From: Sipunculus nudus | Lineage: Eukaryota; Annelida; Sipuncula; Golfingiida; Sipunculidae | Direction of reading: 5' to 3' | DNA: 64,000 bases | NCBI GenBank assembly: GCA_026874595.1 | Contig: CM049313.1 | Coordinates: forward strand, 52,377,659-52,441,658 | In this document: piece by piece, positions 4,501-57,259 of the stretch | Layout of the letters: each line of letters starts with the position of its first letter | Numbering within the stretch: position 1 is the stretch's first letter | The notes under the pieces: model-generated | Told to the model about the DNA's origin: nothing | What the model saw: the letters and a program-made list of their open reading frames with translations, nothing else | Databases searched by the model: none | Program-made: the position numbers and the translations under genes

Positions 4501-6589
4501 CGGTGGTATAAAAGTCTAAATTTAATGTCATGTTCAAAACGATGTTTAATATGATGTATATATACATCATACAATACATTCAACGAATCATCAAAACTGA
4601 AACAGATCAGCAACTGCCTGTGGTGCAGGTAGTCCAAGACAATTTCTGGAGAGACATTTGTTTCGATAAGATGAGGATTTTTCGGTCCTTACTCACTCTA
4701 CCATTTGCAAGTGAGTGATATTGTCAATAAGAACAGGATTGTTTTGGTCCTTATTCCATATACCAAGTGCAAGTTAGCGATATGGGACAGACTTTCTGAA
4801 TATGTGGGTCTGATGTACCAAGGCTTCTTCAGTTTAATCTGATTCATTTGAAGGCTCAATGTTTTACTCCTTATTCACTTTGTCAAAGTCATTTTTGCCA
4901 GGTCGAATAAGATAATTACCATTGAAATTGAGGTACCTTAAGAAAACAGTAAACATGTATCTACCTATTGTCTCCCACAGAGACTGCAACACACTACAGG
5001 GCATGACTAACAAAGCAGAACTACTATATAAATCTTGTCAATATCTGTAAATCTTCTCCTAACCACCTTTCCAACGCGTCTTCTGCTTGCACATACTGAA
5101 AGTCTTAAGCTTAACTTTCTCCATTGGATCCTAAAAGGATTTCACTGATGTAGATACAAATAATCTCACTCCCTTTATTGCTGCACTGCTTGATCAAGTG
5201 AGGCAAAGCAAATGAAATATCCACCTGCTCCAAAGAACTTGCTAGACATAGTGTCGTATGTCAAAGGTATTGGTAACATGTAACGAGGAACCCTCATTCG
5301 AAAGATTATGTAACTCCTTTTAACACACTCATCACATCAAGTCGTCTCGTATTGAGATCTTTAGCAGAGTGCTTGGCATTTTAGTAACATTATGTCCAAG
5401 TTTCATTTCTCCAGGAATGCTGAAAAAGGAGATCATTAAAGGTCATTATGTTGGTCAAATTAAATATAAACTTTATTTATTTTACAAGGATTGTACAACT
5501 ACTTAATATAACTAATATATTAATATACTAAATGTTGGTCAAATTGTTTTCTATACCTGATGTACCATTTTCAAGTACTGATTTGGCCAATTGTCTCTCA
5601 CCTGTAAATAATGACCAGCTTTTATGTTGATGAATTCAAGAGAGCTGTCTTCTATATACTTTTCGACAACGGTGAAGCAAAAGGAAAAAAATCAAGCCTA
5701 AAGCCACCAGCTCTCAATGGGCGGCCTTTACCTATAGAAGAGTGCAGCTTAAATACCCTGCAATAGTCAGGACCAAGAGTCTTTACTGTTTTGTGAAGAG
5801 GACCAGGCACAAATGCTTATATGATTTTTGCAAGACACAACATTGTAAAACGAGTAGTCAATCGGTCTCTACTTAACAAGGTGGCAAAACATGCACTTTG
5901 AATCTGTGGCTGTCGTGACTGCATTATTAGGAATTAGTATTTGCCCTTCCGACAACCTGCTAAACCTCAATAATACATAACCAGCAATTGGGCCTGCCAA
6001 AACGTCTTTGAAGCATTTTTGTAGTATGAAATCTTGACAACAACTATCCTGAAATGTTATGTACTTCGCAATAAACGAAACACGAGGTAGGCTGGTGTGA
6101 CAGGTGTCTTTGAAGTAGTCATGGTCCAGAGCACCGTTCAATGTTACACGTTAACAAGATCTTTCAAAGATAAACACAATGTCTCCTTTCAGGAAATGTT
6201 CGTTGACATTAGTGACTTTCATTTTCATACAGATTATTAATTTGCATGTAAAGTAAAAAAAAGTGACAGAATGCTTTACATTACATTTAATTCCAAGTTT
6301 TAAATTGATTTTCGATATCGGCCATTTGTAAATCAAACATTGCGGTTGAATTCACCTGGCAAATGCTAGACATGCAGTAAACTAGAACCTCTTTACCATG
6401 AATGTTGATTTTTGGCATCATTTATAGATTTAGTTCCTTCTCTGGGAATCCCAGGCAGAGATAGCTGCAAAGATTATAATAAATCTTAATTCAACATGAC
6501 GGCCAAAATTTGTGAAATCGTGAAATTTTTATCAATGGAAGCCCCTGATGTAACAGGCATAGATATTGCCACTTAATTAAATGTTCTAT
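4501..6589. other. Spacer between the two inverted arms, no gene recognised
   Basis: About 2.1 kb lies between the facing arms. Short open frames exist, the longest about 90 codons on - at 5869-6141, but none resembles a family I know. Around 5660-5760 a stretch reads as a broken frame with a run of lysines and prolines. It may be decayed coding sequence of the element, but I cannot name it. Confidence 0.4.
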
Positions 6590-7794: not shown

Positions 7795-8035
7795 GAGGCC
7801 GGGTGATATTTTATCTTTGTTTTGTTTGTTTCGATAACATTTCATATGTTTCATATGATCAGGTAAAAGCATGAAAATAACAGAATTGTTTTGCTAAACG
7901 AGCATAAACACTACATAACAAAGGAAGATCAAAACTGTAAAACTGAAAATAAAAATATTTTTTTTATGGGGGGGGGGGGATAATTGACGCGGGCGGCGCC
8001 TGAGAACCATTCCTTTTATTTTTGTTGTGCCTTAT
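7795..8035 (+). repeat. Interspersed repeat family C, copy 1, with a poly-G run
   Basis: This matches 57265-57500. The shared order is TTGTTTGTTTCGATAA, ATATGATCAGG, AAAGCA, CTAAAC, ACACTACATAACA or ACACTATACATAACA, AAATAAAA, a run of 12-13 G, then AATTGACGCGGGCGG, GCCTSAGAACCAT and TTTTATT. A third, shorter copy lies at 43670-43760. The G-run (7968-7979) is part of the repeat and varies in length between copies. Confidence 0.8.
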
Positions 8036-8644
8036 AGGCCTACAGTCACACTTGGTCGCACGAAGTCCGGGCCTCGCATATGATTGAGGTCCTTGATAAA
8101 TATTCAAACCACATGTAGGCCTACTATATGTAACAGATGTAAAGAAAACAATGTTAACCAAATTCACGTCGTGGTTGGTACAGTGTAATGTGTACATGTG
8201 TGGAGATGGACCACCAAAGTTGTAAGCAAATAATATTGACTTTAAATGTTTTGAAAATCGAGATTTTTTTCTCATTACTGCAGTTACAAAGGTAAAACTC
8301 ATGCATGTAAAATGTGTATTTAATAAGTTTGTACTGGTATTTGTTTCTTTTACATATATGTGCCATATGATTTTCAATAATGTTTATGAAATACTCTTTG
8401 TTTTTAAAGACTTTAATTCCTTCATTCAGTATATATGCTTTTTGTGTATCTTTTGTATGCATATGTAATACTGTTGATCAGTTTCTCATGTCACATGGTA
8501 CATGTGTAGGTGACTATTTGGGAAGACCCCGACTACATTTTTGGCACTCCATGGTTTGGGGGTGACCGTTCGCGACTGTACGATGTTCCGAAACATGTTA
8601 CGAACGCTGTTCCAAAAAGATTTTAAATTTATCCACAATAATTT
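8036..8644. other. No recognised feature
   Basis: Low-complexity AT-rich sequence. The longest open frame, 137 codons on - at 7964-8377, starts in ordinary DNA and ends by translating the poly-G run and repeat C, so it is not a gene. Confidence 0.5.
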
Positions 8645-8745
8645 ACATACAGTGGATCTATATATTAATAACGTAATGCGATTTGTGTGATTTTCCATAT
8701 CTCCGGATTTTTTGTGGATTTCCGATACAACCGTGCGGATTGTCG
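8645..8745 (+). repeat. Repeat D, second copy
   Basis: About 90 bases resemble 7300-7390, with shared CTATATAT, TTTTCC and TATC, CGATA, and CGTGCGGATTGTCG or CGTACGGATTGCCG blocks. Only two copies are seen, 1.35 kb apart in the same orientation, flanking a repeat C copy. Confidence 0.55.
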
Positions 8746-10385: not shown

Positions 10386-10527
10386 ATGTTGGTCAGTTGT
10401 GTATGTCTGTTTGTTTGTCTGTCTCCACCCGCAAATGCATAGTTTGTAGCGATCGCTTTCAAATTTACATAGTTGATGTACAACCAAACGTGTCCGAAGC
10501 CTATTGAATTTTGTCAATATTAGTCAC

Positions 10528-10545
10528 AGGTCAAGGTCAAGGTCA
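10528..10545 (+). promoter_or_regulatory. Three abutting AGGTCA half-sites
   Basis: AGGTCA occurs three times with no spacer. The two junctions each create TCAAGGTCA, the known monomer site of NR5A/ERR-type nuclear receptors. It lies inside repeat sequence, so function is only a possibility. Confidence 0.4.
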
Positions 10546-10964
10546 TCAAAAATTTGAAAAACGGTTTTTTCTTCATATCTTTGTCACCATTAGTCTTCTC
10601 TACTTCAACTGTAGCTCATTTTAATCGTCATTCCAAGGCCTTTCTTCTCGTGTGTAGCTGACTCAAATTTGCCGTAACCATGGTAACATATTTTCGGGGA
10701 AAAGTCATGAAAAATGGTCTTATTTTTCTAACTTTGTCAGTTTTACAGCTAGAGAGGTCTAGTTTTTTTGCATCAGGTAGTATTCAATTCGTGTTATTTG
10801 ATTATATTAAAAGTCTCGCAATATCTCGTATAATATCTCGTTAAACGAGATATTTCGAGATATCACTTAGTAATAGACTAGAGTCTACAGTTATGCAGGA
10901 ATCATTTTGAAACTAATATATCTTATGTCTGACATTAAAAAAAGGATTTTTCATTTTCCGGATA

Positions 10965-10983
10965 TGGCCGCTAGGGGGTGCTA
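10965..10983 (+). promoter_or_regulatory. CTCF-like motif, unit 1
   Basis: TGGCCGCTAGGGGGTGCTA matches the known vertebrate CTCF core (TGGCCACCAGGGGGCGCTA) at most positions. It is the weakest of the four because the GGCGC core reads GGTGC. Confidence 0.4.
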
Positions 10984-11289
10984 CACTTGAACCCCCCGAA
11001 TATAAAAATTTTTGGACATATCTCCAAAAACTATAAACCTCAGTTACAGAAACTATACCTTGGTTTCTTCCTCTGGGTCTTCTTCATAACCTGGGAAAGT
11101 CATCTGGTCTAAAACTTGTGTCACTTTGTCTGTATGTCTGTCTGTTTCTCAGTTGTCCTCACATTCGCCTGCTTGCTGGTTTTCGCATATATAGCATTCT
11201 ACAGGCCACAGTTTTGAAAGAATTCTTTAAAACTGGTACATGTTATGTCTTACACAAATATCTCGAAAAAAATTTTCATTTTCCGAATA

Positions 11290-11308
11290 TGGCCACTAGG
11301 GGGCGCTG
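11290..11308 (+). promoter_or_regulatory. CTCF-like motif, unit 2 (best match)
   Basis: TGGCCACTAGGGGGCGCTG differs from the vertebrate consensus at only two positions, one of which (C to T) is a tolerated pyrimidine. It lies about 325 bases after the first site. Confidence 0.5.
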
Positions 11309-11624
11309 CCCATGACCCTCCCCAACATATCATGCTTTTGCCATATCTCTATAACTATAATTCTCAATTACAGAAACTATGTAATTTCTCTTGGTCTTCA
11401 CCATAACCTGAGTAAGCCACGTGGTCTCATTCTTGTGTTACTTTGTTAGTATGTCTGTCTGTTTGTCAGTTGTCCTCTAATTCGCGTGGTTGCTGATTCT
11501 TGTGTCTTACATAGAGCATTCTAGAGGCAACAGTTTGAAAGGAATCCTTTTGAAACTGGTACATGTTATGTCTTACACAAATATCTCGAAAAGAATTTTT
11601 CATTTTTCCGAATATGGCCGCTAG

Positions 11625-11644
11625 GGGGGCGCTGCCAATGACCA
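11625..11644 (+). promoter_or_regulatory. CTCF-like motif, unit 3, with one extra G
   Basis: TGGCCGCTAGGGGGGCGCTG has an additional G in the core run, which would shift zinc-finger register. It is probably weaker than unit 2. Confidence 0.35.
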
Positions 11645-11944
11645 TCCCCAACATTTCATTCTTTTGGCCATATCTCCATAACTATAATTCTCAATTACAG
11701 AAAATATTACTTATTTTCTTCCTCTTGGTCTTCCCCATAACCTAAGTAAGTCATGTGGTCTCATTCTTGTGTTACTTTGTTGGTATGCCTGTCTGTTTAT
11801 CAGTTGTCCTCAAATTCGCCTGCTTGCTTTTTCTTGTCTTACATATACCATTCTTCAGGCCACAGTTTTAAAGGAGTCCTTTTGAAACTGGTACATGTTA
11901 TGTCTTACACTAATATCTCGAAAAAGATTCTTCATTTTTTGGAT

Positions 11945-11963
11945 ATTGCCGCTAGGGGGCGCT
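11945..11963 (+). promoter_or_regulatory. CTCF-like motif, unit 4
   Basis: TTGCCGCTAGGGGGCGCTG keeps the full AGGGGGCGCT core, with changes at the 5' side. Confidence 0.45.
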
Positions 11964-12425
11964 GCACATGACCTTCCCAAATATTAAATTTTATTTTCTT
12001 CCTCTGAGTCTTATCCATAACCTGGTTAAGTCATCTGGGCTAAAGCTTGTGTCACTTTGTCAGTATGTCTGTATGTTTTTCAGTTGTTGTCAGCTATTTC
12101 TGCTTTCATTTTCTTTTTTTGTGAAATATGTCGTTCAACAGGCCTCACTTTTCACCAGTCGTTCTGAAAATCACTCAATTGTTAGAAAACCGAAAGTTTA
12201 TTCTGTCTGTCTGTCTGTTTGTGATTTCAACTTCCAGCAAGCGTTCGACCTATGGTCGTCTAGTTTTTCTCTTTCACACTTAAATAAGAATTTTTCCAGA
12301 TTGAAAGTTATATTAAAAACATACATATTTCTTGAATTTTCATAGGATAACAAATCATACATTCCAAACAAATGAATAATATGTGAATATTTTCTCCTGC
12401 TTTGAGTCTTGGTACAAGAATATTG

Positions 12426-20465: not shown

Positions 20466-21365
20466 TATCTGAATCGTATCCCTTTTCCGACAAATCGATG
20501 TTAATGCCGAGATTTACCTGCCTTAGATTATATGTGATTTCTACATTCATTCATTATAAGCATTAGGTAATTCCTGCTAGAAATGGTTTTGAAAATGCTC
20601 TCAGACGCATGTTTATAAACAAGCCATAAGTAAAACCTGTACACGGCCTGTGTTGACAAGCAGAAAAGCCATATGACCGAAGGTGTTTCATTGCATTTGG
20701 ACGTACGTTGAAAGTGCCATTTGCTCTTTTCGTCTGACTTGTCACCAGATTCCCTTTTGAATGGGTCTGGAATATTTTGGTGGGGCCCCCACATAATAAC
20801 GGGCATATGAAAAAAAAAAGAGCCTGAGAAATATATATTTTTTCTTTCTGGTCAATCTTCTGAAAAGTTCAAGGAATTTTCTTTTGTTAATACAGGCATC
20901 AGGCAACGGCCCCTTTAACAGTTTTCCATCAGCTCCCATACATTACAACCCATTGTCTTCTAGGTATCAGGTGTAAACTATCCTCAGACAACCCTGCGTG
21001 CCCTGTCTGATCCATACATTGGGCGACTGTGTAATACATATGCGACCATGACAGGGCATATTGATAACTCTGATGGTACCATGCTTCACGGCTAAGCTGT
21101 TATAGATCGTCCCCTTTTGTGCCCATATTTTCTCAACAATCCGGAGTCATATTCGGTAGTTGGTATTATTTTCGATCGACTCGGTGTGCAATGTTGCATC
21201 CCGGTGTGGCTTCCTAAAAATCCTTACGTGGTTTATAACACACCTGATCCGGCGTACATCTTGCTTAAAGGCCAGTCATTCACCTTGTTTCGGTAGCAAT
21301 TGTGTGGTTTCTGACTTACTTTACGTAAATTGTAAAGAAGTACATGTTATTCCTATTCAAAAAAG
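20466..21365. other. No recognised feature
   Basis: Three overlapping short frames on - (20528-20939) have no recognised domain. The right part runs into the tandem array that follows. Confidence 0.45.
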
Positions 21366-21438
21366 TTATGTGCAATTTGTTTCCTGTCTGACTCTCTGGG
21401 TGCTTAAATGACATCTATTCTGATAGCTTGCAAAATAT

Positions 21439-21453
21439 AGGTCATAGTGACCT
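21439..21453. promoter_or_regulatory. Perfect AGGTCA-3-TGACCT palindrome
   Basis: AGGTCATAGTGACCT has both half-sites intact with a three-base spacer, the known geometry of an estrogen-receptor element. Whether a receptor binds it here is unknown. Confidence 0.5.
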
Positions 21454-21597
21454 AATTTCACTTTTCCAAGGACATTGCCCGAGAAAGTCTCAGAATGTTA
21501 CATAAGAAAATTCTTGGCCTAACAGATACAATATGTGCCCTGACTGACTGTCTGGGTGCCTATATGACTTCTTTCCTAAAGGTCGCAAAATATAGCT

Positions 21598-21612
21598 AGG
21601 TCACGGTGACCT
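21598..21612. promoter_or_regulatory. Perfect AGGTCA-3-TGACCT palindrome
   Basis: AGGTCACGGTGACCT, 159 bases after the previous copy. Confidence 0.5.
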
Positions 21613-21880
21613 TATTCAGTTTTCCACAGACATTTGCCAAGGACGTCTCAGAATATTACATTAGAAGATTCTAGGCCTAACAAATACAATGCATGCCGTG
21701 TCTGACTTTCTTGATGCTCAGAATCCTGTTTTCGGCTTAATTTCTGGTTTCCAAGGAGATTTGCCTAGGACCGCTCAGGATGTTGCATTAGAAGATACTA
21801 GGCTTAACAGATACGATTTGTGCCCATCTGACATTCAGGGTGCTCAAAATCCGGTTTTCGGCCTGTAGGTCACAAAATGT

Positions 21881-21895
21881 TGGTCACCATGACCT
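21881..21895. promoter_or_regulatory. Near-perfect AGGTCA-3-TGACCT palindrome
   Basis: TGGTCACCATGACCT keeps the essential GGTCAnnnTGACC core and lacks only the outer A. Confidence 0.45.
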
Positions 21896-22039
21896 ACTTT
21901 CATGTTTCCAAGGACATTTGCCTAGGACCTCCCTAAATGTCACGTTGGAGGATTCTAGACCTTATGGATACTATTTGTGCCCCATCTGACATTCAGAGTG
22001 CTCAAAATAAGGTTTTTCGGCCCATAGGTCATAAAATAT

Positions 22040-22054
22040 ATGTCACCATGACCT
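22040..22054. promoter_or_regulatory. One-sided AGGTCA-3-TGACCT palindrome
   Basis: ATGTCACCATGACCT has one damaged half-site (ATGTCA) and one intact one. Confidence 0.35.
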
Positions 22055-22195
22055 AACTTCAGGTTTCCAAGGAGATTTGCCTGGAAACTCCCAGGATATT
22101 GTGTTAGAGGATTCTAGGCTCCACAAATACGATTTGTCCCAATCTGACATCCATGGTGCTCATATGACATCTTTTCCCTTTAGGTCGCAGAATAT

Positions 22196-22210
22196 AGGTC
22201 ACAGTGACCT
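22196..22210. promoter_or_regulatory. Perfect palindrome identical to the vitellogenin ERE core
   Basis: AGGTCACAGTGACCT matches the classic vertebrate vitellogenin estrogen-response core, including the CAG spacer. Confidence 0.5.
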
Positions 22211-22353
22211 AGTTTCAGGTTTCCAAGGACATTAACCCAGGATATCCCAAAATGTCAGGTAAGAGGTCACTAGGACTAATGGATACAATTTGTGCCACTT
22301 CTGAATGTCTGGGTGCTCAAAATCATGTTTTCGGCCCGTAGGTAACAAAATAT

Positions 22354-22368
22354 AGGTCACCATGACCT
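22354..22368. promoter_or_regulatory. Perfect AGGTCA-3-TGACCT palindrome
   Basis: AGGTCACCATGACCT, 158 bases after the previous copy. Confidence 0.5.
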
Positions 22369-22520
22369 AATTTCGGGTTTCCAAGGAGAGTTGCCCAAGA
22401 CCTCCTTGGATGTACAGTTAGAAGTTTCTAGGTCTAACGGTTACATTTTGTGCCCTGTTAACGGCCGGACGGACACCGGACAAAGGGTGATCGCTAAAAT
22501 TGCTTCTCTATAACAGTTAC

Positions 22521-28156: not shown

Positions 28157-29250
28157 ATGGTTGAACTCCAGCAAGAAGACGAGGCTGCCTTCAATAACTT
28201 TACTAGGCTCCCTCGTGAGCTATTCCAGGAGATGGAGACAAGGGTGCGGCCTTTTCTCGAAAAGAAACATACCTTCATGAGGAAGCCACTGGAACCAGGC
28301 CTACGCCTTGCCATCACCCTCCGCTACCTGGCATCAGGAGACTCCTACAAAAGTCTCTCCTATAGTTTCCTTGTGCCCCACAACACCATCAGCAAGGTTA
28401 TCCGAGAGAGGCCATCATGACTGCTTACGAAGATGAAGTCATGGACTGCCCCAGTACACCAAGATGAGTTGAAGACAGTGTTGCAGGACTTTGCTAACAG
28501 ATGGAACTTCGAGCGTACGTGCGGGGCAGTGGATGGCAAACATGTGGCCATCAGGTGTCCACCCAAAGGGGTTCTGAATACTTCAACTATAGGAAGTTCC
28601 ATTCCATTGTACTGATGGTTGTGGTGGATGCAAATTACAACTTCCTGTTTGTTAAAGTTGGCACACCTGGCAGCGTGGCGGATGGTGGGATCTGGAGAGT
28701 TACACCCTTGGGCAAGCACTGGAAGAAGGCAGAGCAGGCTTTCCTGAACTAGAACCTCTGCCAGGAGAAGACAGCCCTGACGTCCCCTACTCATTGGTTG
28801 CTGATGACGCCGTCATGGTTAATGAAGCCATACCCACACAGGCAGATGTCAAGGGAGCAGAGAATCTTCAACTACTGACTGTCCAGGTCAAGGGGAGTGG
28901 TGGAAAACGCCTTCGGCATCCTCGCCAGTAGATTTAGATGTTTACTAACTACGATGGAGCACGAGCCGAAGAATGTTGAAACCATTGTCTACGCATCATG
29001 TGTCCTCCACAACTTGATCCGCACCAGAAGTGCAGCAGCAGCCATGGAGGAGGGTGATCGAATAAACAACCAGACAGGAAACATCTTACCAGGTTCATGG
29101 AGAACCGAAAGGCAGGAAGAACCCTTGTTGGGACTAACTAGATTGCCAGGAAACTCCTCTAACAAAAGGGCCAAGGACCAGAGGGACCATCTCTGCACTT
29201 ACTACAACTCCGAACAAGGCAGTGCACCATGGCAAAACGACATGATCTGA
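28157..29250 (+). pseudogene. PIF/Harbinger DDE transposase, frameshifted
   Basis: It carries the catalytic nuclease of PIF/Harbinger elements, which cuts and pastes the element. The first frame (28157-28420) has the family N-terminal region with LEPGLRLAITLRYLASGDSY and LVPHNTISKVI. A second reading carries AYEDEVMDCP, and the original frame then resumes with NRWNFERTCGAVDGKHVAIR (catalytic D, codon 28532). After one more shift comes FNYRKFHSIVLMVVVDANY and GSVADGGIW (second D, codon 28681). Past another break, VVENAFGILASRFRCLLTTM holds the catalytic E (codon 28903) and VLHNLIR follows. At least four frameshifts and a TGA (about 28876) in place of a sense codon show that it is dead. All three catalytic residues survive. 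Upstream coding from about 27971 may belong to the N-terminus. Confidence 0.93.
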
Positions 29251-50029: not shown

Positions 50030-50515
50030 CATGTTAGAAGATTCGAAACACGATTTTCGCAAATTGTCCACCGCCTGACTCAATGGGTGCTCAAATTCAT
50101 GTCTGTGGCCGTAAGATCGCAAAAAAATAAGAAACGATGACCTTATTCAGGTTTCCATGGAAAATTGCCTAGAACATCCCTATATGGATTTTTAGAAGAT
50201 TCAACGTCGAAAAGAGAAAAAAAATAATTCGTAAAAATTAGACAAAAATAAAGGTGGTGCCACTAGTCTTCAGGAACTTGAGAAACACTCCATATCCATT
50301 TTGCCTGGAAAGAAACATGGCAAACAGTGATTTATTTATTTAGATAGCTAGGAGGATAAAGGTAGCAGTGACCTAATTTCAGGTGTCCTACACAAACTTG
50401 TATTGACATCCATCGGTTATGATTCGTGCCTTTAAATGGATGACGGAACGGACCAAGGACAAAAGTGATCGCTAAAGCTCAGATTACTTTCAGTCAACTG
50501 AGCTAAAACTTACTG
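50030..50515 (+). repeat. Diverged member of the 21.4 kb array family
   Basis: It repeats GAAGATTC, GGGTGCTCAAAT, GGCCGTAAGATCGCAAAA, GATGACCTTATTCAGGTTTCC and ends with ACGGACCAAGGACAAAAGTG, ATCGCTAAAGCTCAG and CAACTGAGCTAAAA. The palindrome is decayed to GAAACGATGACCT. Its 3' end matches that of the 53.5-56.1 kb array. Confidence 0.75.
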
Positions 50516-53489: not shown

Positions 53490-56140
53490 AAACAAGTGAC
53501 CCATGGGTCATGACGCTCAGCCGACTGACATATTGGCAATGTGTCCTTTCACAGGCAACTAATTAAAATAATGTCCAGCCTTTCCTGAGGAATCTGGCAC
53601 TTATTTTGCATTATTTCTGGGGTGCTCAAACATACCCCAAAACTCTGGAATGTAGGTCAAAGTGACCGAATTTCAGTTTCTGGGGAGAACTTTTGAGGAA
53701 CTCTCAGAATGTCAGGTTAGAAGTTTCTGGGCCAAATGGTTATGATTTCTGCCCTACTTTGGTAACACATTTTCAGTCATTCTGAGGGATGCTTTTAAGC
53801 CCCATAGCTCAGAAAATATGGGTAACAGAGACCAAAATTCACGTTTCCAAGGAGACTTCTCATGGACCTCCCTGGATTAAGAGTGAGAAGATTCCAGGTC
53901 CAATGGTTATGATTTGTGCCCTGCTTTGGCTCAAAGTAGAGAGAAAAAAAATAGTAAACAATAAAAAAAATACAGGTGGTGCCATCAGCCTGCAGAAACC
54001 AATAAAATATTCCATAACAAATATTACAAGCAAAGGATCATGGTAATCAATGCATTGGTTGTTAAGATACTTGAGCTTTTGTATCAATTTTTTTATTATT
54101 TTTGGGGGGGGGGTACTTCTGAGCCCCATAGCTTGAAGAATATTGGTAACAGAGACGTAAGTCCAGGTTTCCACGGAGACTTTTCATGGACCTCTCTGGA
54201 TGTAAAGTAAAAAGATTCCAATTCCAGCGGTTACGAATTGTGCCCCGTTAACAGATGACCACATCTTTAAGAGGTCTCAAGAACAGAGAAAAAAATAGTA
54301 AAAAATAAAGAAAATACAGCTGGCGCCATCAGTCTGCAGAAACTGATGAAACATTCCATGACAAATATCTATGCAAAGAATCATGGTGATCAATGCATAA
54401 GTTGTTCAGATACTTGAGCTTATGCATCAAATTTTTCATTTTTCTCAGGGGGGGGGGTACTTCGGGTTTCCATGGAGACTTTTCATGGGCCTTTCTGGAT
54501 GTAAAGTTAGAAGATTCGAGGTCAAGCGGTTACGATTTGTGCCCTGTTAACAGATGACCGCATCTTTAAAGGTCTCAAAAAAGAGAAAAAAATCGTAAAA
54601 AATAAAAAAAAAATACAGGTCTCGCCACCAGTCTGCAGAAACTGATGAAAGACTCCATGATCAATATCCATGCAAAATATCATGGTAATGAATGCATTAG
54701 TTGTTCAAATACTTGAGCATTTGTATCAAATTTTCATTGTTCCGGGGAGGGGGTATTTTGCAGCCCCATAGCTTGAAGAATATGGGTAACAGAGACCTAA
54801 ATCCAGGTTTCCAAGGAGACTTTTCACGGATCTCTCAGGATTTAAAGTAAGAAGGTTCTAGGTCAAGCGGTTACAATTTGTGCCCTGTTAACAGATGACC
54901 ACATCTTTAAAGGTCTCAAAAACAGAGTTTAAATAGTGAAAAGTAAAGAAAATACAGGTGGCGCCATCAGTCTGCAGAAACTGATGAAACATTCCATGAC
55001 AAATATCTATGCAAAGAATCATGGTGATCAATGCATAAGTTGTTCAGATACTTGAGCTTATGCATCAAATTTTTCATTTTTCTCAGGGGGGGGGGGGGGT
55101 ACTTCGGGTTTCCATGGAGACTTTTCATGGGCCTTTCTGGATGTAAAGTTAGAAGATTCGAGGTCAAGCGGTTACGATTTGTGCCCTGTTAACAGATGAC
55201 CGCATCTTTAAAGGTCTCAAAAAAGAGAAAAAAATCGTAAAAAATAAAAAAAAAATACAGGTCTCGCCACCAGTCTGCAGAAACTGATGAAAGACTCCAT
55301 GATCAATATCCATGCAAAATATCATGGTAATGAATGCATTAGTTGTTCAAATACTTGAGCATTTGTATCAAATTTTCATTGTTCCGGGGAGGGGGTATTT
55401 TGCAGCCCCATAGCTTGAAGAATATGGGTAACAGAGACCTAAATCCAAGTTTCCAAGGAGACTTTTCACGGATCTCTCAGGATTTAAAGTAAGAAGGTTC
55501 TAGGTCAAGCGGTTACAATTTGTGCCCTGTTAACAGATGACCACATCTTTAAAGGTCTCAAAAACAGAGTTTAAATAGTGAAAAGTAAAGAAAATACAGG
55601 TGGCGCCATCAGTCTGCAGAAACTGATGAAACATTTCATGACAAATATCCATGCAAAGAATCATGTTGATCAATGCATAAGTTGTTCAAATACTAGAGCT
55701 TTTGTATAAAATTTTAAATTTTTTTTTCGGGGGGGAGGGGTTATTCAGAGCTCCATAGCTTAAAGAAAAAGGGTAACAGAGACCTAATTCCAGATTTCCA
55801 AATAAACGTTTCATGAACCTCTCTGGTTGTAATGTTAGAAGATTCCAGGTCAAGCGGTTAAGATTTGTGCCCTGTTAACAGATGACCGCATCTTGAAAGG
55901 TCTCAAAAATAGAGGGGGAAAATCGTAAAAAATAAAAAAAAAATACAGGTGGCGCCACCAGTCTGCATAAACTGATGAAACACTCCATGATCAAAATCCA
56001 TGCTAAGAATCACGGTAATCAATACATTAGTTGTTCGGTTACGATTTGTGCCTAGTCAACGGACGGACAGACAGACAGACGGATGGACGACAGTCAATGA
56101 GTGATTGCCTAAGCTCAGATGACTTACAGTCAGCTGAGCT
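53490..56140 (+). repeat. Tandem array of a roughly 320-bp unit, with a newer 640-bp dimer duplication
   Basis: About seven monomers share GCCCCATAGCTTGAAGAATATGGG, TAACAGAGACCTAAATCCAGG, TTTCCAAGGAGACTTTTCA, GGTCAAGCGGTTACRATTTG, TGCCCTGTTAACAGATGACC, GTCTGCAGAAACTGATGAAA and CTCCATGATCAATATCCATGC, plus a poly-G run. Segments 54321-54958 and 54959-55600 are nearly identical dimers. The first unit still has AGGTCAAAGTGACCG (53654-53668), linking the array to the 21.4 kb family. It ends in a GGACGGACAGACAGACAGAC tract (56058-56077) and a hairpin. Confidence 0.9.
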
Positions 56141-56144
56141 AAAA
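56116..56144 (+). repeat. 3' hairpin of the tandem repeat family
   Basis: AGCTCAGATGACT pairs with AGTCAGCTGAGCT around a three-base loop, with one mismatch. A weaker copy stands at the equivalent position near 50476-50504, so the hairpin marks the family's 3' end. Confidence 0.6.
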
Positions 56145-57259
56145 AACGGAACAAGCAGCCTGAGTGTTCGTGATATCCACGTTTTCTGGCCTATTTTTAT
56201 AAATGCTCTTTAGGACAACCTTTAGATTATAAAGGTCAGATAGGTGATTGACCCCTTTAAAGTAAAGACATGGCTCTACAAATTACACAAATGTGTATCC
56301 ATCAACATACTGGTTGTATTTTGAGATGATTTCCTCATCCAGTAATATCCATTGTTACATCATGGCAATATATAGATGCAATACTATTGTAATGGATGCA
56401 AGACGAAAAAAGGAACAGCTTAAGATTGGAGGCGCGTACTCTCTGTGCCCCCTCTTGATGTGCCCATGAAATGTTATATCTGCAATCAACTCTGTCATAT
56501 GTCGGCAATCAACAATGTGAACCTAGTCAATGTTAATCAACACGTCAGGTGTCTGTTGGATTGAATGAACTCCTCATCTGCAGTTAACTGTCATTTAATT
56601 ATTCTCTCAGCAAGGTCTTGATGCTAATTAACATGAAAGAGGCTGCCAGAGGAATGCCAAATGTATAAACAAATGTGTTATATTTCTGACTGTCGAGAAT
56701 AATGCAAGTTACATGGGAATTCATTCGTGTTATAAATCATACATCATGTTTCAATAATTGCCACAACCAACCTTTTAAATAAAAGTTGATTTTATGCTAA
56801 TTCTAATTCAAGGCGTTGTGGAAACAGTCATACCCTTATGTCCAGTGACTTTCAATATACCGCTTTTAAGCTTTCAAATAAATCATGGCAGAACAAAATA
56901 CGTATTCAACAGACGTAAACAAGGTTAGAGATCTATAAGTTCTTCTTTATTCGTATAAAGTTCTTCGAATGGAATGAATATCAAAAAAGTATGTCAGCTT
57001 TCAAATCTTTTGAGAAGATTAATTACTTGGTCCAACTGAATGTCATTGCTCGTGATTCATGTGCCTACACACGTCGACCACAGAAGACATGCGTTACTTT
57101 TACGAATCATCATTATTGAAAAAAAACTGAAGATGAAAGATTATAACTTGCAGCAGGTGAAGCTGTACGTTTCTGATTTCAAAACGTTCCGGCTGCCGGA
57201 GATTACAGCAGCGATTTTTCATATCTTATATAAGGACAAAGCTAAAGATAAAAAGGAGT
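56145..57259. other. No recognised feature
   Basis: AT-rich DNA; frames are short and unconvincing. Confidence 0.5.

Follow-up and report, generated by a model that had tools for sequence, protein, structure and literature searches.

This study revealed that the estrogen-response-type palindromes clustered in the stretch of DNA analysed (64,000 nucleotides, hereafter the window) belong to a large dispersed family. To judge from the sequence, the units of about 158 bp in which they lie make up the central tandem array of a non-autonomous element of Helentron type (HINE), and a large HINE-borne family of perfect consensus EREs was confirmed. The accompanying estrogen-receptor (ER) interpretation is not supported in this genome, and use of the HINE palindromes by another receptor appears possible but unproven. 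No ER gene was found, and the sites accumulate mutations at about the pace seen in the remainder of the repeat; they thus resemble passengers rather than parts of a working hormone system. We consider it quite probable that the HINE arrays spread the palindromes, that these have drifted at about the rate of the rest of the unit, and that receptors other than ER use them, if at all, incidentally or locally. We infer, in addition, a rolling-circle spread of the family and a lack of global regulatory use.

The ERE-bearing array, termed array A, comprises the following features of the window:

21361..22460, plus strand: ERE-bearing array A, of type A, with an incomplete first unit followed by seven units of about 158 bp, of which one is shortened and the last is truncated by the tail
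21439..21453, plus strand: perfect IR3 palindrome AGGTCATAGTGACCT
21598..21612, plus strand: perfect IR3 palindrome AGGTCACGGTGACCT
21611..21737, plus strand: shortened unit from which about 31 bases, including the palindrome, are deleted (from repeat spacing and unit alignment)
21881..21895, plus strand: palindrome with 1 mismatch, TGGTCACCATGACCT
22040..22054, plus strand: palindrome with 1 mismatch, ATGTCACCATGACCT
22196..22210, plus strand: perfect IR3 palindrome AGGTCACAGTGACCT
22354..22368, plus strand: perfect IR3 palindrome AGGTCACCATGACCT
22461..22498, minus strand: HINE left-flank remnant, a GTCC-type microsatellite and a GATCGCTA block, without the hairpin end

A pattern search of the window returned 0 mismatches to AGGTCAnnnTGACCT at 21439, 21598, 22196 and 22354 and 1 mismatch at 21881 and 22040. 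This confirms the preliminary description, which had reported six palindromes between 21439 and 22368, four of them perfect, and had matched them to the consensus ERE AGGTCAnnnTGACCT; all six lie inside a tandem array with a 158-bp unit. The palindrome AGGTCACAGTGACCT at 22196-22210 is identical to what we take to be the core of the vitellogenin element. When up to 2 mismatches were allowed, AGGTCAnnnTGACCT was matched 9 times in the window, against a mean of 1.84 and a maximum of 6 in 100 shuffles. Successive palindromes are separated by 159, 283, 159, 156 and 158 bases, and a repeat search of the window recovered 7 unit copies with spacings of 158, 127, 157, 159, 156 and 158. The same description had proposed a spacing of about 158 bases with one unit lost; the spacing holds, but the supposedly lost unit is still present at 21611-21737, minus about 31 bases with the palindrome.

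The units of array A are 62-80% identical to one another (unit alignment), and the array is therefore regarded as old and degraded. Both element ends are absent, as the right tail ends after GATCGCTA and no left end was found. Since the hairpin end is missing from 22461..22498, array A is interpreted as a truncated relative, classed by its units, and not as an intact HINE. No ORF of at least 100 aa (stop to stop) overlaps the array, and no tRNA was found in the 64-kb window.

Two related copies are located further along the window:

53491..56146, minus strand: copy B, a related HINE copy with both ends present, mostly of type B units (GGGTAACAGAGACCT or close)
56112..56140, minus strand: 5' subTIR AGCTCAGCTGACT and inner inverted repeat (hairpin, -15.9 kcal/mol, RNA parameters)
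53515..53527, minus strand: 3' subTIR, a 12/13 match to the inverted 5' subTIR
53497..53510, minus strand: 14-bp 3' end palindrome TGACCCATGGGTCA
50059..50505, minus strand: third, short family copy with one unit and the hairpin end

Read on the minus strand, copy B shows, in this order, a T run, a subTIR of 13 bp and the inner inverted repeat, then a GTCY-type microsatellite and the array, and finally the inverted subTIR and the 14-bp palindrome; its first unit, at 53654, retains AGGTCAAAGTGACCG. The subTIRs near both ends (GCTCAGCTGACTG and GCTCAGCCGACTG, 12/13 matching) fall within the 11-15 bp that define a HINE. The inner inverted repeat, a further defining feature, is made up of AGCTCAGCTGACT, 3 nt and AGTCATCTGAGCT, in an arrangement identical to that at locus L014. 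A GTCY/GTCC microsatellite is also characteristic of HINEs, and a GGAC-type run adjoins the hairpin in copy B and at L014, L008, L002 and L015. Ends similar to the TGACCCATGGGTCA palindrome were observed at L002, L013, L021 and L022, and right ends are common to the window's copies A (truncated), B and C and to L002, L008, L013 (degenerate), L014 and L015; left ends were likewise found to be common to the compared loci. A HINE is expected to sit in T-rich DNA and to cause no target-site duplication. In this regard, the segment L019:2893-3414 lacks the element, aligns to the sequences on either side of copy B and is a possible empty site, although its status as a diverged paralogue makes the junction inexact. 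At L014:7774-8895, family units lie near one another in opposite orientation (plus strand 7945-8033, minus strand 8311-8743).

The repeat had been called satellite-like. A free satellite without a carrier is disfavoured, as the array tails and the ends of the related copies fit HINE anatomy and assign the repeat to a mobile element. This organization resembles that of Cg_HINE from Crassostrea gigas, a group of non-autonomous Helentron elements with 140-180-bp central repeats, in which subTIR, inner inverted repeat, GTCY/GTCC microsatellite, tandem array, subTIR and end palindrome follow one another and the arrays are short and dispersed (PMC7492417). The likeness lies in the described modules and their order, and no nuclear-receptor palindrome is named for the Cg_HINE unit in the available portions of that paper (PMC7492417). 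The module order of copy B also agrees, by description only, with that of the HINE/DINE-1 elements of Drosophila and mite, for which autonomous partners are known (PMC4067079, in the sections available). Among bivalves, the BIV160/Cg170 satellites also have units of about 160-170 bp and have been linked to HINE-like elements (PMC5139131, PMC7492417); both published BIV160 primers gave 0 matches in the window at up to 3 mismatches.

With regard to the abundance of the family, the assembly examined comprises 1.4265 Gb in 153 contigs, 17 of which are longer than 60 Mb (contig C18 measures 52,500 bases). The exact site AGGTCANNNTGACCT was found 13,608 times genome-wide, compared with 93 times for a control pattern reading it backwards, a ratio of 146; the palindrome pattern reads identically on both strands, and the equal counts obtained in the two orientations therefore refer to one and the same set of sites. 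A total of 5,393 of these perfect sites (0.396) are preceded by AATAT and followed by NNTTTC, a combination with 0 control matches. If every perfect site belonged to the family, the nine-column identities of a palindrome-blind sample would predict a flanked fraction of 0.366. Given that the observed fraction is no lower than this, most of the 13,608 perfect sites probably belong to the HINE family. Exact flanks place 5,393 sites within the family.

Of 24 ten-kb stretches, 19 taken at hand-picked round coordinates and 5 from a random list, 6 were found by a palindrome-blind profile to contain the family, which occupies 2,617 of the 240,000 bases; the 24 stretches contain 2 perfect sites, both within the family. 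The 40 scored palindrome-blind matches are spread over 16 of the 17 long contigs (chromosomes) which, together with the 5,393 exactly flanked sites, bears out the earlier view of a dispersed family. One pattern searched for family relatives gave 0 matches in a collection of viral contigs and 0 in a collection of genome contigs. Within the library searched, no paper combined EREs with satellite DNA and bivalves, or EREs with transposable elements and molluscs, nor was there, by title and abstract start among the matches listed, any published report of the HINE family's palindrome.

The family is not uniform. A pattern with fixed flanks and an open palindrome, GAATAT N15 AATTTCAGGTTTCC, was matched 3,852 times genome-wide (control 0). 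Among the matches listed (100 of 3,852, all from C1), 85 were nearer to GGGTAACAGAGACCT, 47 of them exactly, and 15 were nearer or equal to the palindrome, 4 being perfect. Judging by these units, an abundant subfamily, B, carries GGGTAACAGAGACCT, a broken palindrome that is no ERE, so the ERE-bearing copies must, by the same counts, mostly have flanks other than GAATAT N15 AATTTCAGGTTTCC. Absence of the palindrome from the family consensus had been named as an outcome that would speak against the original proposal; the consensus of one major subfamily contains it, while that of the abundant subfamily B does not. Among 100 listed perfect sites flanked by AATAT and NNTTTC, the spacer is CAG in 52, CCA in 31, TGG in 7 and other in 10. 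In 36 of the window's 39 nearest relatives, a CAG-type unit is followed by a CCA-type unit, the other 3 rows having CCA-type units on both sides, and this alternation agrees with the TRF period of 315 bp over 21738-22395.

The existence of subfamily B also bears on the idea that the palindrome serves the repeat itself, as a hairpin or protein site aiding unit amplification, recombination or transposition, as in the phBglII400 satellite. The palindrome is symmetric and present once per unit, the right edge of one deletion in the window lies at or within it, and 13 of 16 phBglII400 junctions fall in a 12-bp palindrome, according to the sections available (PMC5139131). Nevertheless, subfamily B was amplified without a palindrome and the right junction of the arrays is found at another point of the unit, following TTTGTGCCCTG or near variants of it, which makes such a role quite improbable.

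Conservation of the arms was assessed with a palindrome-blind query (window 22211-22353), for which 40 of 1,278 candidates were scored, one being the window itself; the flanks of the other 39 copies were read. Perfect palindromes were found upstream in 21/39 and downstream in 24/39 copies, and 12-column blocks of the body were perfect in a mean of 20.1/39 copies (range 4-36). When no rows were dropped, mismatches amounted to 56/936 in the arms against 287/5577 in the body (p=0.30), whose divergence is biased low because the body is the search query. Compared with the bases immediately outside the palindromes, the arms have fewer mismatches (56/936 vs 89/936, p=0.006), but the excess in these outer flanks is wholly downstream (62 vs 30 in the arms; upstream 27 vs 26), where the flank also contains A/G variants and alignment shifts. 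A version leaving out 3 upstream and 7 downstream rows (body 285/5575 without dropping) gave, upstream and downstream respectively, 20/432 and 10/384 mismatches for arms, 6/108 and 7/96 for spacers, and 23/504 and 37/447 for flanks. In this version the arms (30/816) differ from the flanks (60/951) with a Fisher p of 0.013, from the body with p=0.083 and, within this young set, from the spacer (13/204) with p=0.12.

In the older type-A units of the sampled stretches, 127/157 arm positions are identical to the majority letter, compared with 1333/1744 in other columns (p=0.24) and 21/39 in the 3-base spacer (p=0.001); in the type-A units of the window, the values are 75/97 for arms and 925/1193 for other columns. 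Conservation of arms over spacer is what a dimer site would show, and subfamily spacer variants would do likewise. For the flank half of the genome-wide comparison of arms with flanks, freeing two flank Ts raises the count from 5,393 to 5,849; the arm-freed counterpart of this pattern is AATATAGGNCANNNTGNCCTNNTTTC. Taken together, in the palindrome-blind samples the arms decay at about the rate of the unit body, but more slowly than the spacer or the flank downstream; weak constraint on them is conceivable. Decay at the neutral rate combined with an absence of binding had also been named as evidence against a regulatory role; with regard to decay, the arms are indeed not clearly more conserved than the unit.

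A zf-C4 search of the 1.43-Gb assembly yielded 67 exon matches, all of which were translated, together with one further place from another search; none contained a CEGCKAFFKR finger, and none was a second-finger exon starting with AFFKR. The P-box of ER or ERR was also searched as a degenerate DNA pattern, which had 1 genome match, the ERR exon. Neither the family search nor the protein and P-box searches detected an ER DNA-binding domain in the assembly, though ERR was found (L096, CEACKAFFKRTIQG, and L104); an ER that the assembly does not contain, or one whose sequence has diverged beyond the reach of the searches used, would escape detection. By motifs that we take to be diagnostic, other fingers are RXR-like (L095), RAR-like (L085/L109), COUP-TF-like (L089), EcR-like (L112) and TR-like (L083/L107). 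That the species' own ER uses the family as its sites, as originally suggested, is therefore considered very improbable, despite the match to the consensus ERE. The suggestion had invoked an ER homolog that binds this sequence; this holds for the mollusc Marisa, whose ER DNA-binding domain binds the ERE core in gel shift without ligand (PMC3778743, in the portions available), but no such receptor was found in the present assembly. It has been recommended that molluscan ESR genes be classified as NR3D, and their role in estrogen signalling has been doubted, according to the available text (PMC12965858).

The sites might instead form a nuclear-receptor network, in which a dimeric receptor still present (COUP-TF, an RXR heterodimer or ERR) would bind the IR3 sites, and the element would have profited from this or rewired host genes, as happened with the Helitron-borne heat-shock elements of Caenorhabditis. 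The exact consensus dimer site is 146 times as frequent as its control, and receptors to which motifs assign a suitable half-site specificity (RXR-like L095, COUP-TF-like L089, ERR L096/L104) are present. Variation in the arms is lower than in the downstream flank and, in older units, than in the spacer. On the other hand, the arms show no less divergence than the unit body or than the other columns of older or window units, and subfamily B is abundant despite having lost the site. In addition, mollusc ERR showed no apparent ERE binding, with data unshown, in the available portions of the paper (PMC3778743). We thus regard such a network as unlikely. Of the thousands of consensus nuclear-receptor dimer sites (up to 13,608) that a Helentron family would have accumulated genome-wide in an animal in which no ER was found, another of the animal's receptors may bind a share, and it may have rewired this network or been titrated by it; this reading, too, is unlikely.

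The closest precedents for such spread come from other lineages, as far as the accessible text of the respective papers extends. In C. elegans, 11,527 of 18,766 HSEs (61.4%) are Helitron-borne (PMC6927752), and there too much of the genome's stock of a consensus transcription-factor site comes from a rolling-circle family; however, HSF-1 binding and gene induction were shown in Caenorhabditis (PMC6927752), whereas the HINE sites are a sequence finding and the expected receptor was not found. The DR2 retinoic-acid response elements of primate Alu repeats similarly multiply a nuclear-receptor consensus site, but Alu is a retroelement, its sites are direct repeats and not IR3, and binding was demonstrated by ChIP at several elements (PMC1785376). 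Both cases indicate that dispersed repeats can spread working sites; for the HINE family, it is the sequence step that is shown.

According to the explanation that we favour, the palindrome is part of a unit of about 158 bp forming the central tandem array of a HINE. An autonomous Helentron presumably produced the very numerous copies of this element across the genome, and within the arrays the number of units grew. By these routes, one major subfamily would have seeded most of the 13,608 perfect consensus EREs (5,393 by exact flanks, the remainder by extrapolation), and another abundant subfamily has lost the palindrome. After insertion, the palindromes would drift at about the rate of the unit body, any nuclear-receptor use being incidental or local and not by ER. 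The genome provides a figure, 13,608 perfect EREs, and one mobile family as their main source; in genomes of this kind, most of what an ERE motif scan counts would be transposon copies. As an assembly in which no ER is detectable, it also offers a natural control against which claims of estrogen regulation can be judged. Should some receptor prove to bind the family, a further example would be at hand of a regulatory site dispersed by rolling-circle elements.

Several other features were observed in the window. A 334-bp tandem array of 3.2 copies at 10940-11978 contains CCGCTAGGGGGCGCTG-like cores at 10968, 11293 and 11949, which presumably resemble the CTCF core. Tandem nuclear-receptor half-sites, CAGGTCAAGGTCAAGGTCA, lie at 10527-10545, and AAGGTCAAGGTCA with up to 1 mismatch has 3 matches in the window (two of them overlapping at 10527-10545), compared with 0.10 by chance. 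A DDE_Tnp_4 transposase remnant was identified at 28879-29247 (E 9.3e-08), and an open single-exon frame of 362 aa at 36358-37443 matches a rhodopsin-type 7TM receptor domain (E 6.9e-12).
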